Positions 19,433 through 25,963 of a DNA stretch of 64,000 bases are shown one piece after another. The notes under the pieces were generated by a model, which was given only the letters and a program-made list of their open reading frames with translations, did not search any database and was not told the origin of the DNA. The position numbers and the translations under genes are program-made. Position 1 is the stretch's first letter. Every line of letters begins with the position of its first letter. The DNA comes from Brachyspira hyodysenteriae ATCC 27164 (GTDB lineage Bacteria; Spirochaetota; Brachyspiria; Brachyspirales; Brachyspiraceae): positions 1,550,001-1,614,000 of the forward strand of contig NZ_CP015910.2 of NCBI RefSeq assembly GCF_001676785.2, in the 5' to 3' direction.

Positions 19433-20371
19433 TTAATTCCTAATTATTTCAATATCTTTATATTCATTAGGATAAGCATATTTAGCCATCATAATCATAG
19501 CATTTACAATATTATGTGTAGGTAATGAAGATGAAGCTATATAATATACATCTTTATTTTTTACGGCACTTATATTCTGCCAAGATTTACGTCTTAATAT
19601 TTCTTCTGTAGGGTTATCAATATAGTCAACGCTTGTAAATATTATATCAGGATTTGAAAATAATATATTTTCTTCCGAAGTGCTTATCCAAGAATTTTTA
19701 TCTGAAAATACATTAGATGCTCCTATAATATTTATCATATCGTCTATATAAACATTAGTGCCGAATGAATATAAATTAGGCAAAGCAGCTATTTCAAAAT
19801 AAACTTTCTTTTTGTTTTGTATGCTTTCTCCTATAGTTCTAATATTTTCTATATTTTTATTCATAATGTTAATAATATTAGAAGCGGCATCACTTTTATT
19901 CAAAACATTACCTAAAAAAGTTATATCATCTTCTATAGATTTTATGGTATCACTGCTAGGTATAACCGCAACGCATATACCTGAAGCTTTTATAGAATCT
20001 AACGAAGTTTTTCCAGAAAATACACTAAAATTATTAACAAAAACAATATCTGGTTTCATTGCTATGATTTTTTCTGAATCAGGATTAAGCATATCAAAAA
20101 CAGGTATATTAGATACATCTATATTATTAGTATATAAAATTTCTTTGGAAGTAGAATCAAAAGCAATTATCTTATCTGAAATACCTAATGACAATATAAT
20201 ATCTGTAGCTGATGGTGTTAAAGATGCTATATTTTCTATTTTTTCAGGCAAGATAATATCATTTCCAGCCCTATCTTTTATAGATAAGTTATTATTACTT
20301 TTATCTGCATTAATGCATGAAAATAAAAATATACTAAAAAAAATAAATAAAAATATTCTAACAGTTTTCAT
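19433..20371 (-). CDS. Periplasmic-binding lipoprotein of a BtuF/FecB-type importer
   Basis: A 312-residue class III binding protein with a lipoprotein signal ending in FLFSC (Cys19). Its two lobes are typical: the first begins IKDRAGNDIILPEKIENIAS with LTPSATDIILSLG and MKPDIVFV, the second contains FEIAALPNLYSFG, a later NPDIIFTSVDY and SWQNISAVKNKDVYYI. The serine and threonine in LTPSATDI fit the BtuF/FecB family. It heads the importer genes and follows the ExbB-like gene by 49 bp. Confidence 0.9.
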   Translation of the reverse strand: MKTVRIFLFIFFSIFLFSCINADKSNNNLSIKDRAGNDIILPEKIENIASLTPSATDIILSLGISDKIIAFDSTSKEILYTNNIDVSNIPVFDMLNPDSEKIIAMKPDIVFVNNFSVFSGKTSLDSIKASGICVAVIPSSDTIKSIEDDITFLGNVLNKSDAASNIINIMNKNIENIRTIGESIQNKKKVYFEIAALPNLYSFGTNVYIDDMINIIGASNVFSDKNSWISTSEENILFSNPDIIFTSVDYIDNPTEEILRRKSWQNISAVKNKDVYYIASSSLPTHNIVNAMIMMAKYAYPNEYKDIEIIRN

Positions 20372-20420
20372 AATTTTTTAATTGCAGAAGTATAAACTAA
20401 AGAATTGTTATTGTCAATTA

Positions 20421-21053
20421 TTAATTTTCTGTTTTAGTATTGCTGTCATTTATTATATAATCTGAAACTTCATTTGATAAATTTTCTATAAATAATATTC
20501 TTTCATTAAGAGTATTTACAAAATAGTTATAAAATACCACTGTAGGTATGGCAATAATAAGTCCAGCCGCAGTAGTAAGCAAGGCATTCGCAATACCTGA
20601 AGCCAAAGCAGACGGGTTTCCGCTTCCTGCAACTGATATTACAGCAAAAGATTGTATCATACCAAGTATAGTACCTAAAAGTCCAAGCAATGGAGCAACT
20701 GTTGATATTGTAGAAAGAGCAGATATAAATCTTTCAAGTCTTGGAAGTTCTTTATTGGAGGCACTTTGCATAGATTCCTTAGGCATATCAGAATTTTTAA
20801 GTCCTGACATTATAATATTTGCTAAAGGGGATTTTGATGTTTCACATAATGCAATAGCTGCTTTTAATTCTTTATCTTTTATTAAAGAAATAAGCTTAGG
20901 TGCTAATGAATTATCCTGTGATTTTATTCTAGTAAAATAAATAAATCTATCAACTACTATTGTTAATCCCAATACTGAAGATATAAGAAGTCCTATCCAA
21001 CAAATAGCCATAGCCGAATTAAGCAAACTCTCAGATCCAAATATATTATCCAT
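20421..21053 (-). CDS. MotA/TolQ/ExbB-family proton channel protein
   Basis: A 210-residue inner membrane protein with three predicted helices: residues about 15-37, 115-140 and 155-180. The motifs PLLGLLGTILGMIQSF and ALLTTAAGLIIAIPTVVFYN mark the ExbB/TolQ channel. ExbB, with ExbD and TonB, energises outer-membrane receptors. No exbD or tonB lies next to it, which is unusual. Its place at the head of the importer genes suggests that it powers uptake of the same cargo across the spirochaete outer membrane. A TolQ role cannot be excluded. Confidence 0.85.
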   Translation of the reverse strand: MDNIFGSESLLNSAMAICWIGLLISSVLGLTIVVDRFIYFTRIKSQDNSLAPKLISLIKDKELKAAIALCETSKSPLANIIMSGLKNSDMPKESMQSASNKELPRLERFISALSTISTVAPLLGLLGTILGMIQSFAVISVAGSGNPSALASGIANALLTTAAGLIIAIPTVVFYNYFVNTLNERILFIENLSNEVSDYIINDSNTKTEN

Positions 21054-21161
21054 ATATATAAATGCCCCATTAAAATATCATTATTTGTTAAAACATTATA
21101 ATTGCAAGAATATAAAAAATCAATATTTTAAAATATATTTTAAAAATAAATATAAAATTAC
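21054..21161. other. Divergent intergenic region, ExbB side
   Basis: This AT-rich part of the 322-bp divergent region holds no gene. It is too short for a cobalamin riboswitch of the ExbB unit and I see no B12-box-like sequence in it. Confidence 0.4.
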
Positions 21162-21190
21162 TTGACATTTTTTATTATTTATAATAATAT
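21162..21190 (+). promoter_or_regulatory. Sigma-70-type promoter of the arginine operon
   Basis: TTGACA (21162-21167), a 17-nt spacer and TAATAT (21185-21190). Transcription would begin near 21197, giving a leader of about 180 nt before argC, much longer than needed for translation. Confidence 0.8.
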
Positions 21191-21227
21191 TATTGTCAAT
21201 AGTAAATGTTTTTAGGAAAAAATAAAA

Positions 21228-21287
21228 ATGTATAACGTAAATTCAATCAATTACAATTTATTTTTCAATAATTCTTCAAGGCGTTAA
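21228..21287 (+). CDS. Candidate arginine leader peptide
   Basis: A 19-codon ORF, MYNVNSINYNLFFNNSSRR, sits about 30 nt after the predicted transcription start. It has AGGA upstream of its ATG and ends in two consecutive arginine codons (AGG CGT) directly before the stop. These codons look rare in this AGA-preferring genome. The small inverted repeat AGGC-GTTAA-GCCT overlaps the Arg codons and stop, and TTTTCAATAATT occurs twice (21262-21273 and 21301-21312). This is the layout expected of a translation-coupled attenuator for argCJBD. I see no classical T-tailed terminator after it, so the mechanism is open, and the ORF could be chance. Confidence 0.5.
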   Translation: MYNVNSINYNLFFNNSSRR

Positions 21288-21375
21288 GCCTCTAATTTTC
21301 TTTTCAATAATTTAAATCTCGTAAAAAAATAAAAACAAAATAATATTAACCATTAATATATAGGAGTATTGTATT

Positions 21376-22434
21376 ATGATAAAAGTATCCGTTATAGGTG
21401 CAACAGGATATGCAGGTGCAGAATTAATAAGATTATTATTATCTCATAGTAAAGTAGAATTAAAAAATCTTTCTTCAAAAAGTTTTGTAGGAAAAAATAT
21501 CAATGAGATATATCCTAATTTAAATAAAAACTTAGATAAATTATTATTAGATGAAAATGAAATATTTGAAGATACTGATGTTGTATTTGCATCATTGCCT
21601 GCAGGATTAAGCGATGATATTGCAAATAAATGTTTTGAAAAAAATATTTTGTTTATAGATTTAGGTGCTGATTTCAGATTGGACAACGAAGAAGATTATA
21701 AAAATTGGTATGGTAATGAATATAAATATAAAAATCTTCATAAAGAAGCAATATACTCAATACCTGAAATAATTAAATATGATAATGTATATAACAAAAA
21801 AGAATTAAAGAATGCAAAAATTATAGGTAATCCAGGCTGCTACCCTACTTCTATAGGTTTAGCATTAGCCCCAGCATTGGTAAATAAATTCATAATAAAA
21901 GATGATATTATAATTGATTCTAAATCAGGTGCGACAGGTGCAGGAAGAGAATTGAAATTGAATACTCATTATACTGAATGTAACGAAGCCTTTGCTCCTT
22001 ATAAAATTGCCGAGCATAGACATACCCCTGAAATAGAACAGACATTATCAAATATATACGGCGAAGATATAAAAGTTACTTTTGTTCCTCATTTACTTCC
22101 ATTAAATAGAGGAATAGTTTCAACAATATATACTAAATTAGAAAATAAAAATCTCAAATTAGAAGATATACATAATACTTATAAAGAGTTTTATAAAGAT
22201 TCAGCATTTGTAAGAGTATTAAATATCGGAGAGATAGCGAATTTAAAATATGTTAAATACTCAAATTATTGTGATATATCTTTGCATATGGATGCAAGAA
22301 CTAATAAATTAATAATAGTATCAACAATAGATAATATGGTAAAAGGAGCGGCAGGACAGGCAATACAAAATATGAATATAGCTTTAGGCTTAGAAGAATC
22401 CGAAGGACTGAATTTCATTCCTCCAGCTTTCTAA
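21376..22434 (+). CDS. argC: N-acetyl-gamma-glutamyl-phosphate reductase
   Basis: ArgC reduces N-acetylglutamyl phosphate to the semialdehyde with NADPH, the third step towards arginine. The 352-residue protein has the nucleotide-binding GATGYAGAELIRLL at the start, the catalytic cysteine in NPGCYPTSIGLAL (near residue 155), SGATGAGRE and the C-terminal DNMVKGAAGQAIQN. GGAG precedes the ATG. It is the first gene of argC-argJ-argB-argD. Confidence 0.96.
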   Translation: MIKVSVIGATGYAGAELIRLLLSHSKVELKNLSSKSFVGKNINEIYPNLNKNLDKLLLDENEIFEDTDVVFASLPAGLSDDIANKCFEKNILFIDLGADFRLDNEEDYKNWYGNEYKYKNLHKEAIYSIPEIIKYDNVYNKKELKNAKIIGNPGCYPTSIGLALAPALVNKFIIKDDIIIDSKSGATGAGRELKLNTHYTECNEAFAPYKIAEHRHTPEIEQTLSNIYGEDIKVTFVPHLLPLNRGIVSTIYTKLENKNLKLEDIHNTYKEFYKDSAFVRVLNIGEIANLKYVKYSNYCDISLHMDARTNKLIIVSTIDNMVKGAAGQAIQNMNIALGLEESEGLNFIPPAF

Positions 22435-22440
22435 AAATAT

Positions 22441-22484
22441 AAAAATTGTGAACGCTTGGCATACACTTAATGTGAACAATTTTT
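22441..22484 (+). promoter_or_regulatory. Hairpin between argC and argJ
   Basis: AAAAATTGT (22441-22449) and ACAATTTTT (22476-22484) form a 9-bp stem that begins 6 bp after the argC stop codon. The weak A-T pairing and large loop suggest at most partial termination or an mRNA processing site within the operon. Confidence 0.4.
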
Positions 22485-22557
22485 AATAATAATAAAGAAT
22501 ATAACAAATTGATTTAATAAATAACAATTGATTTTATAAATAAATAGGAGATTATAA

Positions 22558-23787
22558 ATGGATAGTTTTAAACAAATTGAAGGCGGAATATGTGCTTCTG
22601 AAGGTTTCTTAGCAAACGGAGTACATGCTGGTATAAAAAAGAATAGCGAAAAAAAAGATTTAGCAATAATTTATAGTAAAACTTTATGTTCTGCTGCTGC
22701 GGTATATACTCAAAACAAAGCATGCGGAGCAAATATCACAGTAAGCAAAGAACATTTAAAAGACGGAAAAGCAAAAGCTGTTATATGCAATTCTGGAAAT
22801 GCTAATACTTGTAATAAAGACGGTGTAGATAAAGCAAAAGAAATGTGCAAACTAACTGCTGATGTATTAGGTATTGATGAAAAAGATGTTGCTGTTGCTT
22901 CTACAGGTGTTATAGGCGTACCATTACCAATAGAGCCTATACAAAAAAATATAAAAGAACTTATAGAAAATGCTGCTCATTCTGCAGAGCATGCTAAAAA
23001 TGCAGCAAATGCCATAATGACTACTGATACATTTATGAAAGAAATTGCTTATGAATTTGAAATTGACGGAAAGAAAGTTCATATAGGCGGAATGTCAAAA
23101 GGAAGCGGTATGATTCACCCTAATATGGCTACTATGCTTGCATTCGTAACTACTGACTGCAATATATCAAGTGAAATGCTTCAAAAGGCTTTAAGCGAAG
23201 ATATTAAATACACATATAATATGATTAGTGTTGACGGTGATACTTCTACAAATGATATGTGTGTTGTACTTGCAAATGGTGAGGCTAAAAATACTTTAAT
23301 CGATAAAGAAGATGATAATTATAAAATATTTTGCAAAGCATTGAATATGACTAATACTTATTTAGCAAAACAAATGGCTAAAGACGGAGAAGGTGCTACA
23401 AAATTAATAGAATGCGAAGTAATCAATGCTGAAAGTTTAAAATTGGCTAGAAAGATAGGTAAATCTGTAATAACTTCAAATTTAGTAAAAGCAGCTATGT
23501 ACGGATGCGATATGAATTGGGGAAGAATTTCATGTGCTATAGGTTATACCGATGCTGATTTTGATATAAATAAAGTTTCTATAAATGTTGGTTCAAAATA
23601 CGGTGAAATGAATGTATATAAAGACGGATACGGTGTAGAGTTTGATGAGGATGAAGCTTTAAAAATATTGAAAGAAGATGAAATAAAAATCACAATTAAT
23701 ATGAACTGCGGAAATTATAAAGCTACAGCTTGGGGATGTGATTTGACTTATGATTATGTAAAAATTAATGGCTCTTATAGAAGTTAA
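22558..23787 (+). CDS. argJ: Bifunctional glutamate N-acetyltransferase / amino-acid acetyltransferase
   Basis: ArgJ recycles the acetyl group from N-acetylornithine to glutamate, and in many bacteria also acetylates glutamate with acetyl-CoA. The 409-residue precursor has the self-cleavage and nucleophile site in GMIHPNMATMLAFVTTD: the Thr in MAT becomes the N-terminal nucleophile of the beta chain. GGMSKGSG and the late GCDMNWGRI are further landmarks. Because no argA or argE is in the cluster, this is a cyclic arginine pathway. AGGAG lies upstream of the ATG. Confidence 0.96.
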   Translation: MDSFKQIEGGICASEGFLANGVHAGIKKNSEKKDLAIIYSKTLCSAAAVYTQNKACGANITVSKEHLKDGKAKAVICNSGNANTCNKDGVDKAKEMCKLTADVLGIDEKDVAVASTGVIGVPLPIEPIQKNIKELIENAAHSAEHAKNAANAIMTTDTFMKEIAYEFEIDGKKVHIGGMSKGSGMIHPNMATMLAFVTTDCNISSEMLQKALSEDIKYTYNMISVDGDTSTNDMCVVLANGEAKNTLIDKEDDNYKIFCKALNMTNTYLAKQMAKDGEGATKLIECEVINAESLKLARKIGKSVITSNLVKAAMYGCDMNWGRISCAIGYTDADFDINKVSINVGSKYGEMNVYKDGYGVEFDEDEALKILKEDEIKITINMNCGNYKATAWGCDLTYDYVKINGSYRS

Positions 23788-23824: not shown

Positions 23825-24691
23825 ATGGAAAATATTTCAAATAGAGATAAGGCTCTAATACTTAATCAGGCATTACCATATATACAAAAATATACAGGAA
23901 AAACAGTTGTAATAAAATACGGCGGAAGTGCTATGGAAAATCCTGAATTAAAAAAGAAAGTTATGAGCGATGTTGCTTTGCTTTCTACTGTAGGAATAAA
24001 TGTAATAGTAGTTCATGGAGGCGGTAAAGATATTACTGCTATGCTTAATAAAATAGGAAAAGAATCAAAGTTTATAAACGGCTTAAGATACACTGACAGC
24101 GAAACTGCTGAAGTAGTAAAAATGGTCCTTGCAGGCAAAGTTAATAAAGACCTAGTTGCTTCTCTTGAAAACTGCGGAGGTAAATGTCTTGGTATATGCG
24201 GTATTGACGGAAAGATGTTTAAAGTAAGCAAATATAAAGGCGATGATGATTTGGGATTTGTAGGCGATGTTGATCATGTTGATACAGATTTACTCAATAC
24301 AATTATATCAAATAAATATATTCCAATAGTTGCAACTATAGGATGCGATGATGAAGGAAATGTTTATAATATTAATGCTGATACTGCTGCTGCAAGAATA
24401 GCTGAAAGTTTAAAAGCTGAAACTCTAATATATATGACTGATACACCAGGGCTTTTAAAAGATAAAGATGATGAAAATACTTTAATAAGTCAAATTAATA
24501 TTAAGGATATAGATAACTTAATAAAAGACGGCACTATATCAGGCGGAATGATACCTAAAGTTAGGCATTGTATAGATGCTGTAGAAAATGGGGTGTCAAA
24601 AGTATTTATAATAGACGGAAGATTATGCCACTCATTATTAATAGAAATGTTCACCGATGAAGGTATAGGAACTATGTTTCATAAAGATTGA
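23825..24691 (+). CDS. argB: Acetylglutamate kinase
   Basis: ArgB phosphorylates N-acetylglutamate. The 288-residue amino-acid-kinase fold shows VVIKYGGSAM with the catalytic Lys, VVHGGGKDI for the substrate phosphate, NADTAAARIAESLKA and SGGMIPKVRHC with the C-terminal catalytic Lys. An N-terminal helix of about 20 residues (ALILNQALPYIQKY) is of the type seen in the hexameric, arginine-inhibited enzymes, so feedback inhibition is likely, by family knowledge. Confidence 0.95.
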   Translation: MENISNRDKALILNQALPYIQKYTGKTVVIKYGGSAMENPELKKKVMSDVALLSTVGINVIVVHGGGKDITAMLNKIGKESKFINGLRYTDSETAEVVKMVLAGKVNKDLVASLENCGGKCLGICGIDGKMFKVSKYKGDDDLGFVGDVDHVDTDLLNTIISNKYIPIVATIGCDDEGNVYNINADTAAARIAESLKAETLIYMTDTPGLLKDKDDENTLISQINIKDIDNLIKDGTISGGMIPKVRHCIDAVENGVSKVFIIDGRLCHSLLIEMFTDEGIGTMFHKD

Positions 24692-24724: not shown

Positions 24725-25963
24725 ATGCCTTGTAAGAAAAACAATAAAAATAATAATCAAGATAATGAAAAATCAAAATTAAAAAAAGAATATATTAATA
24801 ATAATAAAAAATATGTTGCTAATACTTATGGAAAATTTGATATAGTTTTAGAGTCTGGAAAAGATTGTAAATTAAAAGATATAGAAGGAAAAGAATATAT
24901 TGATTTAGGAAGCGGTATCGGAGTTAATAGCATTGGTTATAGTAATAAGAATTATATAAATGCTGTAACTAATCAATTAAAAACTCTTCAGCATACATCA
25001 AACCTTTACTATACAAAACCTTATATAGATTTAGCTAAAAAGCTATGCACTATTACAAAATATGATAAAGTATTTTTCTGCAACTCTGGTGCTGAATCAA
25101 ATGAAGCTGCTATTAAATGTGCTAGAAAATATTCTTTCAATAAATATGCTAATAATGATAAAAATTATAAAAGAAACAAAATAGTAACTTTAAAAAATTC
25201 TTTTCATGGCAGAACTATGGCTACAATTTCAGCTACAGGACAGGATGTTTTTCATAATTACTTTTTCCCATTTTTGGAAGGTTTCGAATTTGCAGAGGCA
25301 AACAATTATGAAGATACTATATCAAAATTAAAAGATAATGCCTGTGCTATGATGATGGAGCTTATACAAGGTGAAGGCGGAGTTATACCTCTTGATAAAG
25401 AATATGTTCAGAAAGTACAGAAATACTGCGAAGAAAATGATATACTTTTTATAGTTGATGAAGTGCAAACAGGTGTAGGAAGAACAGGAAAATTCTTATG
25501 CTCTGAGCATTTTGGTATAAAGCCTGATATCACTACATTGGCTAAAGGTTTAGGAGGAGGACTTCCTATAGGTGCAATGCTTATGAGCAAAAAATGTTCT
25601 GATGTATTTGTTCCTGGAGATCATGCTTCTACATTCGGTGCTAATCCTGTTGTTGCTGCCGGTGCTTTGGAAGTACTAAATATAATAGATAAAAACTTAT
25701 TAAAAGAAGTTGAAAAGAAATCCAAATATATAAAAAGCAAATTAACAAAACTTGATAATGTTGTAAGCGTAGACGGTATAGGTTTAATGCTTGGAATAGG
25801 TTTGAAAGAAGGATTAAATGCAAGAGAAATAGTAGAGAAATGCATATCAAAAGGAACTATTCCATTAACTGCTAAAAATAAAATAAGACTTCTTCCACCT
25901 CTCACAATTAGTGATAAAGAATTAGAAAAAGCCGTTTCGATACTTTGCGAGTGTTTAGGATAA
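24725..25963 (+). CDS. argD: Acetylornithine aminotransferase
   Basis: ArgD transfers an amino group from glutamate to the acetylglutamate semialdehyde using PLP. The 412-residue class III aminotransferase has NSGAESNEAAIK, SFHGRTMATISATGQ, IVDEVQTGVGRTGK and the PLP lysine in TTLAKGLGGGLPIGAM. The first 30 residues are rich in Lys and Asn and resemble no family motif; they may be a low-complexity extension. It closes the argCJBD operon. Confidence 0.94.
   Translation: MPCKKNNKNNNQDNEKSKLKKEYINNNKKYVANTYGKFDIVLESGKDCKLKDIEGKEYIDLGSGIGVNSIGYSNKNYINAVTNQLKTLQHTSNLYYTKPYIDLAKKLCTITKYDKVFFCNSGAESNEAAIKCARKYSFNKYANNDKNYKRNKIVTLKNSFHGRTMATISATGQDVFHNYFFPFLEGFEFAEANNYEDTISKLKDNACAMMMELIQGEGGVIPLDKEYVQKVQKYCEENDILFIVDEVQTGVGRTGKFLCSEHFGIKPDITTLAKGLGGGLPIGAMLMSKKCSDVFVPGDHASTFGANPVVAAGALEVLNIIDKNLLKEVEKKSKYIKSKLTKLDNVVSVDGIGLMLGIGLKEGLNAREIVEKCISKGTIPLTAKNKIRLLPPLTISDKELEKAVSILCECLG

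Follow-up and report, generated by a model that had tools for sequence, protein, structure and literature searches.

Is arginine synthesis in the spirochaete Brachyspira hyodysenteriae controlled by a ribosome that reads arginine codons in a short frame upstream of argCJBD? The window analyzed here is a stretch of 64,000 nucleotides within the 3.07 Mb genome. A preliminary description of it had proposed an arginine attenuator composed of a consensus promoter, a 19-codon leader ORF ending in AGG CGT TAA and an AGGC/GCCT stem, all ahead of the genes argCJBD. Each of these parts was found again, the leader elements by reading the letters and the genes with NCBIfam models. The features are as follows:

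21162..21190, forward strand: putative promoter, TTGACA (21162-21167), 17 nt, TAATAT (21185-21190), letters read
21214..21217, forward strand: Shine-Dalgarno (SD) AGGA of the leader ORF, inside the TTTTAGGAAAAATAAAAATG block
21228..21287, forward strand: leader ORF MYNVNSINYNLFFNNSSRR then stop, ATG at 21228, 19 codons, letters read
21279..21284, forward strand: control codons AGG (21279-21281) and CGT (21282-21284), Arg-Arg, with TAA (21285-21287) directly after
21279..21291, forward strand: hairpin AGGC-GTTAA-GCCT, arms 21279-21282 and 21288-21291, predicted -4.9 kcal/mol
21288..21375, forward strand: unstructured, G-poor spacer from hairpin to argC, by shuffles and base composition
21376..22434, forward strand: argC, TIGR01850 above cut-off (NCBIfam)
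22558..23787, forward strand: argJ, NF003802 and TIGR00120 above cut-off (NCBIfam)
23825..24691, forward strand: argB, TIGR00761 above cut-off (NCBIfam)
24725..25963, forward strand: argD, TIGR00707 (subfamily model) above cut-off (NCBIfam)

The leader of the B. hyodysenteriae argCJBD operon

The stop codon lies in the loop (GTTAA) of the 4-bp stem, and the two Arg codons begin in the 5′ arm and extend into that loop. The TTTTAGGAAAAATAAAAATG block around the SD of the leader is conserved across most argC leaders. The promoter sequence is present, but with six promoter-type matches in the window against 4.9 expected, a single match in such AT-rich DNA is no better than chance; what speaks for it is the TTGAC box that recurs at the same place in the argC upstream regions of Brachyspira relatives (masked in L034). 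The 13-mer AGGCGTTAAGCCT occurs once in the window, where 0.03 occurrences would be expected allowing up to one mismatch, and once in the whole genome. It is present in 18 of the 29 genomes of the family, and its reversed control in none of the 29.

AGG and CGT are uncommon Arg codons, as had been stated: among 516 Arg codons in 51 window ORFs, as called by a simple script, AGA accounts for 446, AGG for 44 and CGT for 22. In a scan of 30 of the 33 tRNA loci of the genome, tRNA-Arg genes with the anticodons TCT, CCT, GCG and TCG were found and none with ACG. By standard pairing rules, and given CCT and GCG among these genes, AGG and CGT would be read mainly by different minor tRNAs. The GCG anticodon is found in the tRNA-Arg at L242 (G000:C1:2260709-2260782).

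The element TTTTCAATAATT does occur twice at this locus, as first described. The alternative pairings proposed for it are not supported: it is a direct repeat and so cannot pair with itself, and across 22 Brachyspira upstream regions it is doubled in two (including that of the window), single in one and absent from 19.

Conservation of the arginine codons and reading frame

We compared the argC upstream regions of the family. A search for argC was positive for 23 of the 26 Brachyspira genomes and for one of the three from other genera; upstream sequence was obtained for 22 of the 23 Brachyspira argC genomes, and 22 distinct upstream regions were aligned. Left out of the counts were L122 (the contig ends inside argC), L133 (another genus) and eight further Brachyspira loci in which the last 300 nt were identical to those of another locus. 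An SD-preceded ORF ending in AGG CGT TAA is present in 19 of the 22 regions, so that the Arg-Arg codons and their reading frame, the persistence of which had been suggested as a test, do persist across Brachyspira. AGGCGTTAAGCCTC is unchanged in 17 of these 19 leaders. In the exceptions, L131 and L134, AGG CGT TAA is kept and the stem is replaced by GGCG-TTAAT-CGTC or CGCC (GGCG-TTAAT-CGYC), which is still predicted to fold, at -2.3 and -5.0 kcal/mol. The predicted pairing probability of the hairpin 5′ arm averages 0.93 over the 19 leaders.

The leader ORF is 15 to 21 codons long, and its length has changed at least eight times on the argC tree. The ORF had originally been traced backwards in frame, and the frame was therefore checked again without assuming it. 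Each of the 19 argC leaders has a single SD-preceded ATG between promoter and motif, and this ATG is always in frame with the motif; the same is true of all five ABC transporter leaders described below. With no constraint on frame, the chance of its being kept through eight independent length changes would be about (1/3)^8. As controls, the distance from stop to argC ATG, in which no frame is kept, gave residues modulo 3 of 10/7/2 in the argC leaders, and the distance from promoter to ATG gave 12/6/5 in the argC and ABC leaders pooled (n=23).

Pairwise differences in the leader body number 62/58/59 at the three codon positions (pairs more than 30% different or of unequal length were left out), an equal spread that by itself is no sign of coding; the codon differences comprise 111 nonsynonymous and 25 synonymous changes, from pairs that are not independent. 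The frame and the last two codons are kept and the body drifts, which is the expected sign of a codon-sensing leader and argues against a functional peptide. Judged from these alignments, it is the codons and not the peptide that are under conservation in the argC leaders. The features looked for in a leader-peptide attenuator can thus be read here: a short ORF that has an SD and a start codon and follows soon after the putative promoter, and tandem codons for the amino acid made by the operon that are kept while the remaining peptide varies.

Outside Brachyspira, a leader scan of 71 of 72 argC loci (L089, which has no upstream sequence, was left out) gave four leaders with Arg-Arg, against six with Leu, five with Lys and four with Ile. 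No Arg-Arg leader was seen by eye before argC of G028, the sole other genome of the family with this gene.

The three regions without Arg-Arg, L128 (G018), L037 (G002) and L130 (G020), form one clade on the argC tree. L037, which matches a B. alvinipulli record exactly over 300 nt, and L130 have no Arg codon before the stop, and L128 has a single one (MYIFIATLFVHTR then stop). Loss of the Arg codons in relatives, named beforehand as evidence against an attenuator, has therefore occurred in this one three-genome clade, but Arg-Arg is kept in the other 19 of 22 regions. No argG was found in these three genomes, so that argCJBD there would not reach arginine by the usual route. argG was also undetected in G001, G010, G013 and G021 (86% complete), all of which have an Arg-Arg leader, and hence pathway loss alone does not explain the loss of the codons; a link between the two losses is suggestive only. 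Across the genus, argG (PF00764) was not found in nine of 26 Brachyspira genomes (G001, G002, G010, G012, G013 and G018-G021), eight of which have argC, the exception being G019.

Similar leaders before transporter operons

The exact 13-mer also ends a 20-aa, SD-preceded ORF (MINCFSNIKILSFFQVLIRR then stop, and variants) in five genomes, at L145 (G010), L146 (G011), L147 (G013), L148 (G016) and L149 (G012). AGG CGT stands directly before the stop in all five of these leaders having the motif, and the hairpin is as in the argC leaders. The ORF lies about 100 nt upstream of two substrate-binding-protein genes, a permease gene and an ATPase gene (the last assigned by eye) of an ABC transporter. 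For both binding proteins the best NCBIfam model, below its cut-off, is a lysine/arginine/ornithine binding protein, and the substrate of the transporter is likely to be of that type. In a search of 30 transporter loci, an SD-preceded ORF ending in Arg was present at six (in five genomes, two loci being the same site) and such a leader was absent at 24, that of the B. hyodysenteriae genome of the window among them. One further transporter leader, L159 in G019 (MKIYYNSYKSRRISLNNVQFKK then stop, read by eye), contains AGG CGT with no stop behind it and was not counted; neither argC nor argG was found in G019.

Among loci with one-mismatch variants of the 13-mer, 20 were read, which is not every place listed, and eight of these are argC or ABC leaders. 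In L180, L195 and L182 there is an open frame ending in Arg-Arg-stop, but it runs antisense within ORFs of 840-1131 nt, and these candidates were rejected; the rest of the other 12 loci have no leader ORF. No Arg-Arg-stop leader was found before argF (14 of 15 argF starts read; L227 gave none) or before argG (18 loci read; the start of L208 is misplaced). Several argG regions contain arginine-rich open frames (e.g., ...KRREKER then stop) in repeat-like stretches that are not common to all species.

A search with AGGCGTTAA in eight genomes, in which 94 distinct site contexts were read and filtered on ORF, SD and position, gave a third operon class. The sites read were 16 of 17 in G000 and 17 of 18 in G010 (the two left out being the known argC and ABC sites), 43 of 46 in G001 (argC being one of the other three), four of 22 in G003, four of 20 in G006, four of 19 in G009 and four of 19 in G018, and, as far as the loci show, both sites in G019. 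Those passing the filter were the argC leaders of G010 and G009 and the sole new case, a leader (MLYASFNKIKHSQMLSFTSPSHKSIKTKKSIKFRR then stop) before a sodium:solute symporter operon in G010, where one more small ORF separates the leader from the symporter. Leader ORFs ending in Arg-stop precede the symporter at nine of 15 family loci (L369-L377). Four end in Arg-Arg-stop (G010, G012, G013 and G016) and five in one Arg codon, AGG TGA (G007, G009, G015, G018 and G020), those of G018 and G020 having a GTG start. The hairpin is not conserved among them. Five of the six remaining symporter loci seem, by eye, to follow the same upstream gene (L378 and L379 were translated). At the leaderless L378 (G002) and L379 (G001) the symporter lies between arcA, above its model cut-off, and a homologue of L-arginine:glycine amidinotransferase (E 4.8e-87, with no Pfam or NCBIfam match). 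Flanked in this way, the symporter likely has an arginine-related substrate.

The three operon classes bear on two explanations that do without codon sensing. The AGGC-N5-GCCT inverted repeat could be a DNA operator or a protein-binding RNA hairpin to which the ORF is incidental, as might be thought from the 13-mer, which is better conserved than the flanking sequence and is found again ahead of the ABC transporter. This is very unlikely, since all 24 leaders have their sole SD-preceded ATG in frame, through the at least eight length changes of the argC set, since L131 and L134 alter the repeat yet keep Arg-Arg-stop, and since the symporter leaders keep an Arg codon before the stop without this repeat. 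The second explanation is arrest of the nascent peptide by free arginine, like that of the fungal arginine attenuator peptide. That peptide, too, is an upstream and arginine-related one, but the bodies of the Brachyspira leaders are unconstrained within operons and between operons share little beyond the C-terminal Arg, which makes this mechanism hardly credible. We consider instead that the leader probably senses arginine, as charged tRNA-Arg, through its Arg codons, a reading drawn from sequence comparison. The finding is larger than the preliminary description had it: what the comparison points to in Brachyspira is an Arg-codon leader-peptide regulon, the output step of which we infer.

Regulators and the output of the leader

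ArgR (PF01316) was found in none of the 29 genomes of the family; the same search was positive in nine of 14 named control genomes. From this and the Arg-Arg leaders, Brachyspira probably senses arginine by ribosomal reading of codons. Covariance models gave no match of the leader to a T-box or other Rfam regulator within window positions 20000-23000; the three Rfam matches elsewhere in that interval are all below gathering scores. Rho is present in the genome.

No terminator-like site was found in the argC leader of the window, and in 19 leaders the spacer from stop to argC is no more structured than its shuffles (z from -1.5 to +1.2), on which ground a conserved spacer structure was rejected. 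The argC spacers have in common that they are G-poor, with C exceeding G, and when 32 upstream regions of the window are ranked by C minus G, that of argC comes first. Pyrimidines make up 0.66 of the 20 nt that follow the hairpin and 0.47 of the remaining spacer, with the higher value near the hairpin in 19 of 19 argC leaders; this pyrimidine-rich start, weak or absent in the ABC leaders, is a possible Rho loading site. By eye the spacer also looks C-rich in the clade without Arg-Arg, so C-richness does not track the codons; this, like the lack of a conserved hairpin in the symporter leaders, counts against a Rho-dependent mechanism. The presence of Rho and of an unstructured stretch with C over G is what a Rho-dependent attenuator calls for, a permissive description that, again by eye, also fits that clade.

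In classical attenuation of the trp/his type, AGGC/GCCT would be the 1:2 pause hairpin and a terminator/antiterminator pair downstream would decide. The codons in the 5′ arm and the stop in the loop do resemble the trpL 1:2 hairpin, and some argC leaders have U-rich stretches after the hairpin. However, no intrinsic terminator with antiterminator was found after the leader ORF of the window, the ABC leaders have by eye no U-run after the hairpin, and the loop, at 5 nt, is so short that both arms would lie under a stalled ribosome. Classical attenuation is accordingly improbable. Of the attenuator first proposed, the Arg-codon leader ORF stands, recurring before the transporters; a classical terminator/antiterminator switch is not supported.

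A second possible output is translational control, in which the leader ribosome would alter the pairing of the argC SD, for example with GCCTCC. Folding predictions for the spacer show such pairing in some leaders, L031 and L035 among them, and modelling of a stalled ribosome raises the unpaired fraction of the L134 SD from 0.05 to 0.95. Over the 19 leaders, though, the mean predicted unpaired fraction changes only from 0.26 to 0.34, with most of the change from L134 and, more weakly, from L032 and L038. SD sequestration was rejected on account of this small change, and translational control in general appears unlikely, if somewhat less so than the classical switch.

The absence of a terminator, the unstructured pyrimidine-rich spacer, the presence of Rho and the size of the ribosome footprint lead us to favor Rho-dependent attenuation relieved by starvation. 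When arginine is plentiful, the ribosome on the leader would read AGG CGU, terminate at UAA and leave; the stop-codon hairpin would then re-form, and a naked, pyrimidine-rich and G-poor spacer would trail RNA polymerase, so that expression would end early, with Rho as the most likely agent. At low levels of arginyl-tRNA, the ribosome would stall on AGG or CGU, covering the hairpin together with the first part of the spacer, and expression of the operon would follow. A ribosome covers about 13 nt past its A-site codon; the stalled ribosome would thus cover the whole hairpin and the first bases of the spacer, and the terminated one would uncover both. Codon sensing by the leader is well supported by comparison, and we infer translation of the leader, stalling, the direction of control and Rho as effector. 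The choice of a Rho-dependent step as output is tentative, made at a little under even confidence, with mRNA decay, translational control or another output as alternatives.

Relation to known leader peptides and meaning for Brachyspira

The attenuators of the trp, his and leu operons have a short leader ORF with codons for the product of their own operon and a stop codon inside a hairpin. The Brachyspira leaders are alike in both respects and differ in their unstructured spacer, in which no terminator or antiterminator was found. In tnaC of the tryptophanase operon, the ribosome is arrested by free tryptophan together with a conserved peptide. Likewise, a ribosome stalled at the end of the Brachyspira leader ORF would block the loading of Rho just downstream, whereas its stall would come from codon starvation.

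According to the report on Salmonella speF, orf34 is an Arg-codon leader that controls ornithine decarboxylase, with Rho-dependent termination involved (PMC6386406). What the two have in common is a short ORF upstream in which rare Arg codons stand side by side (AGG CGG in speF). As described there, orf34 differs in that its sensing codons are numbers 12 and 13 of 34, a long way before the stop, and in having a conserved peptide domain, a long structured leader and control by RNase G (PMC6386406). The Brachyspira operons, by comparison, serve arginine synthesis or, probably, transport, and in their leaders the Arg codons stand right at the stop of a peptide whose sequence can vary freely. Candidate cys leader peptides in Mycobacterium and its relatives, for which Rho has been proposed, are similar in their control codons near the stop, the lack of a terminator hairpin and the pyrimidine motifs between leader and gene (PMC1262725). 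They differ in sensing cysteine, in belonging to a different phylum and in pyrimidine motifs that are not conserved, and the passages on them describe no stop-codon hairpin (PMC1262725). Neither arginine nor Brachyspira occurs in the main text of a survey of premature terminators (PMC2965389). Among the matches listed in searches of the open literature, which mostly leaves subscription papers outside, there was no report of a leader peptide for arginine biosynthesis or of leader-peptide attenuation in Brachyspira.

Our overall proposal, which we hold to be evenly balanced, is that Brachyspira has a translation-read arginine regulon in place of a repressor, in which a stalled ribosome, by shielding the RNA around the stop codon, overrides a terminator-less, probably Rho-based attenuation in three unrelated operon classes, each of which would have acquired a short ORF with one or more minor Arg codons last before its stop. 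If true, arginine biosynthesis would be governed by a leader peptide in a genus of spirochaetes whose genomes yielded no ArgR. The 22 genomes and three operon classes form a natural series for the presence, variation and loss of control codons, a series that could address the origin of codon-sensing leaders, the choice of codons and attenuation without a terminator.
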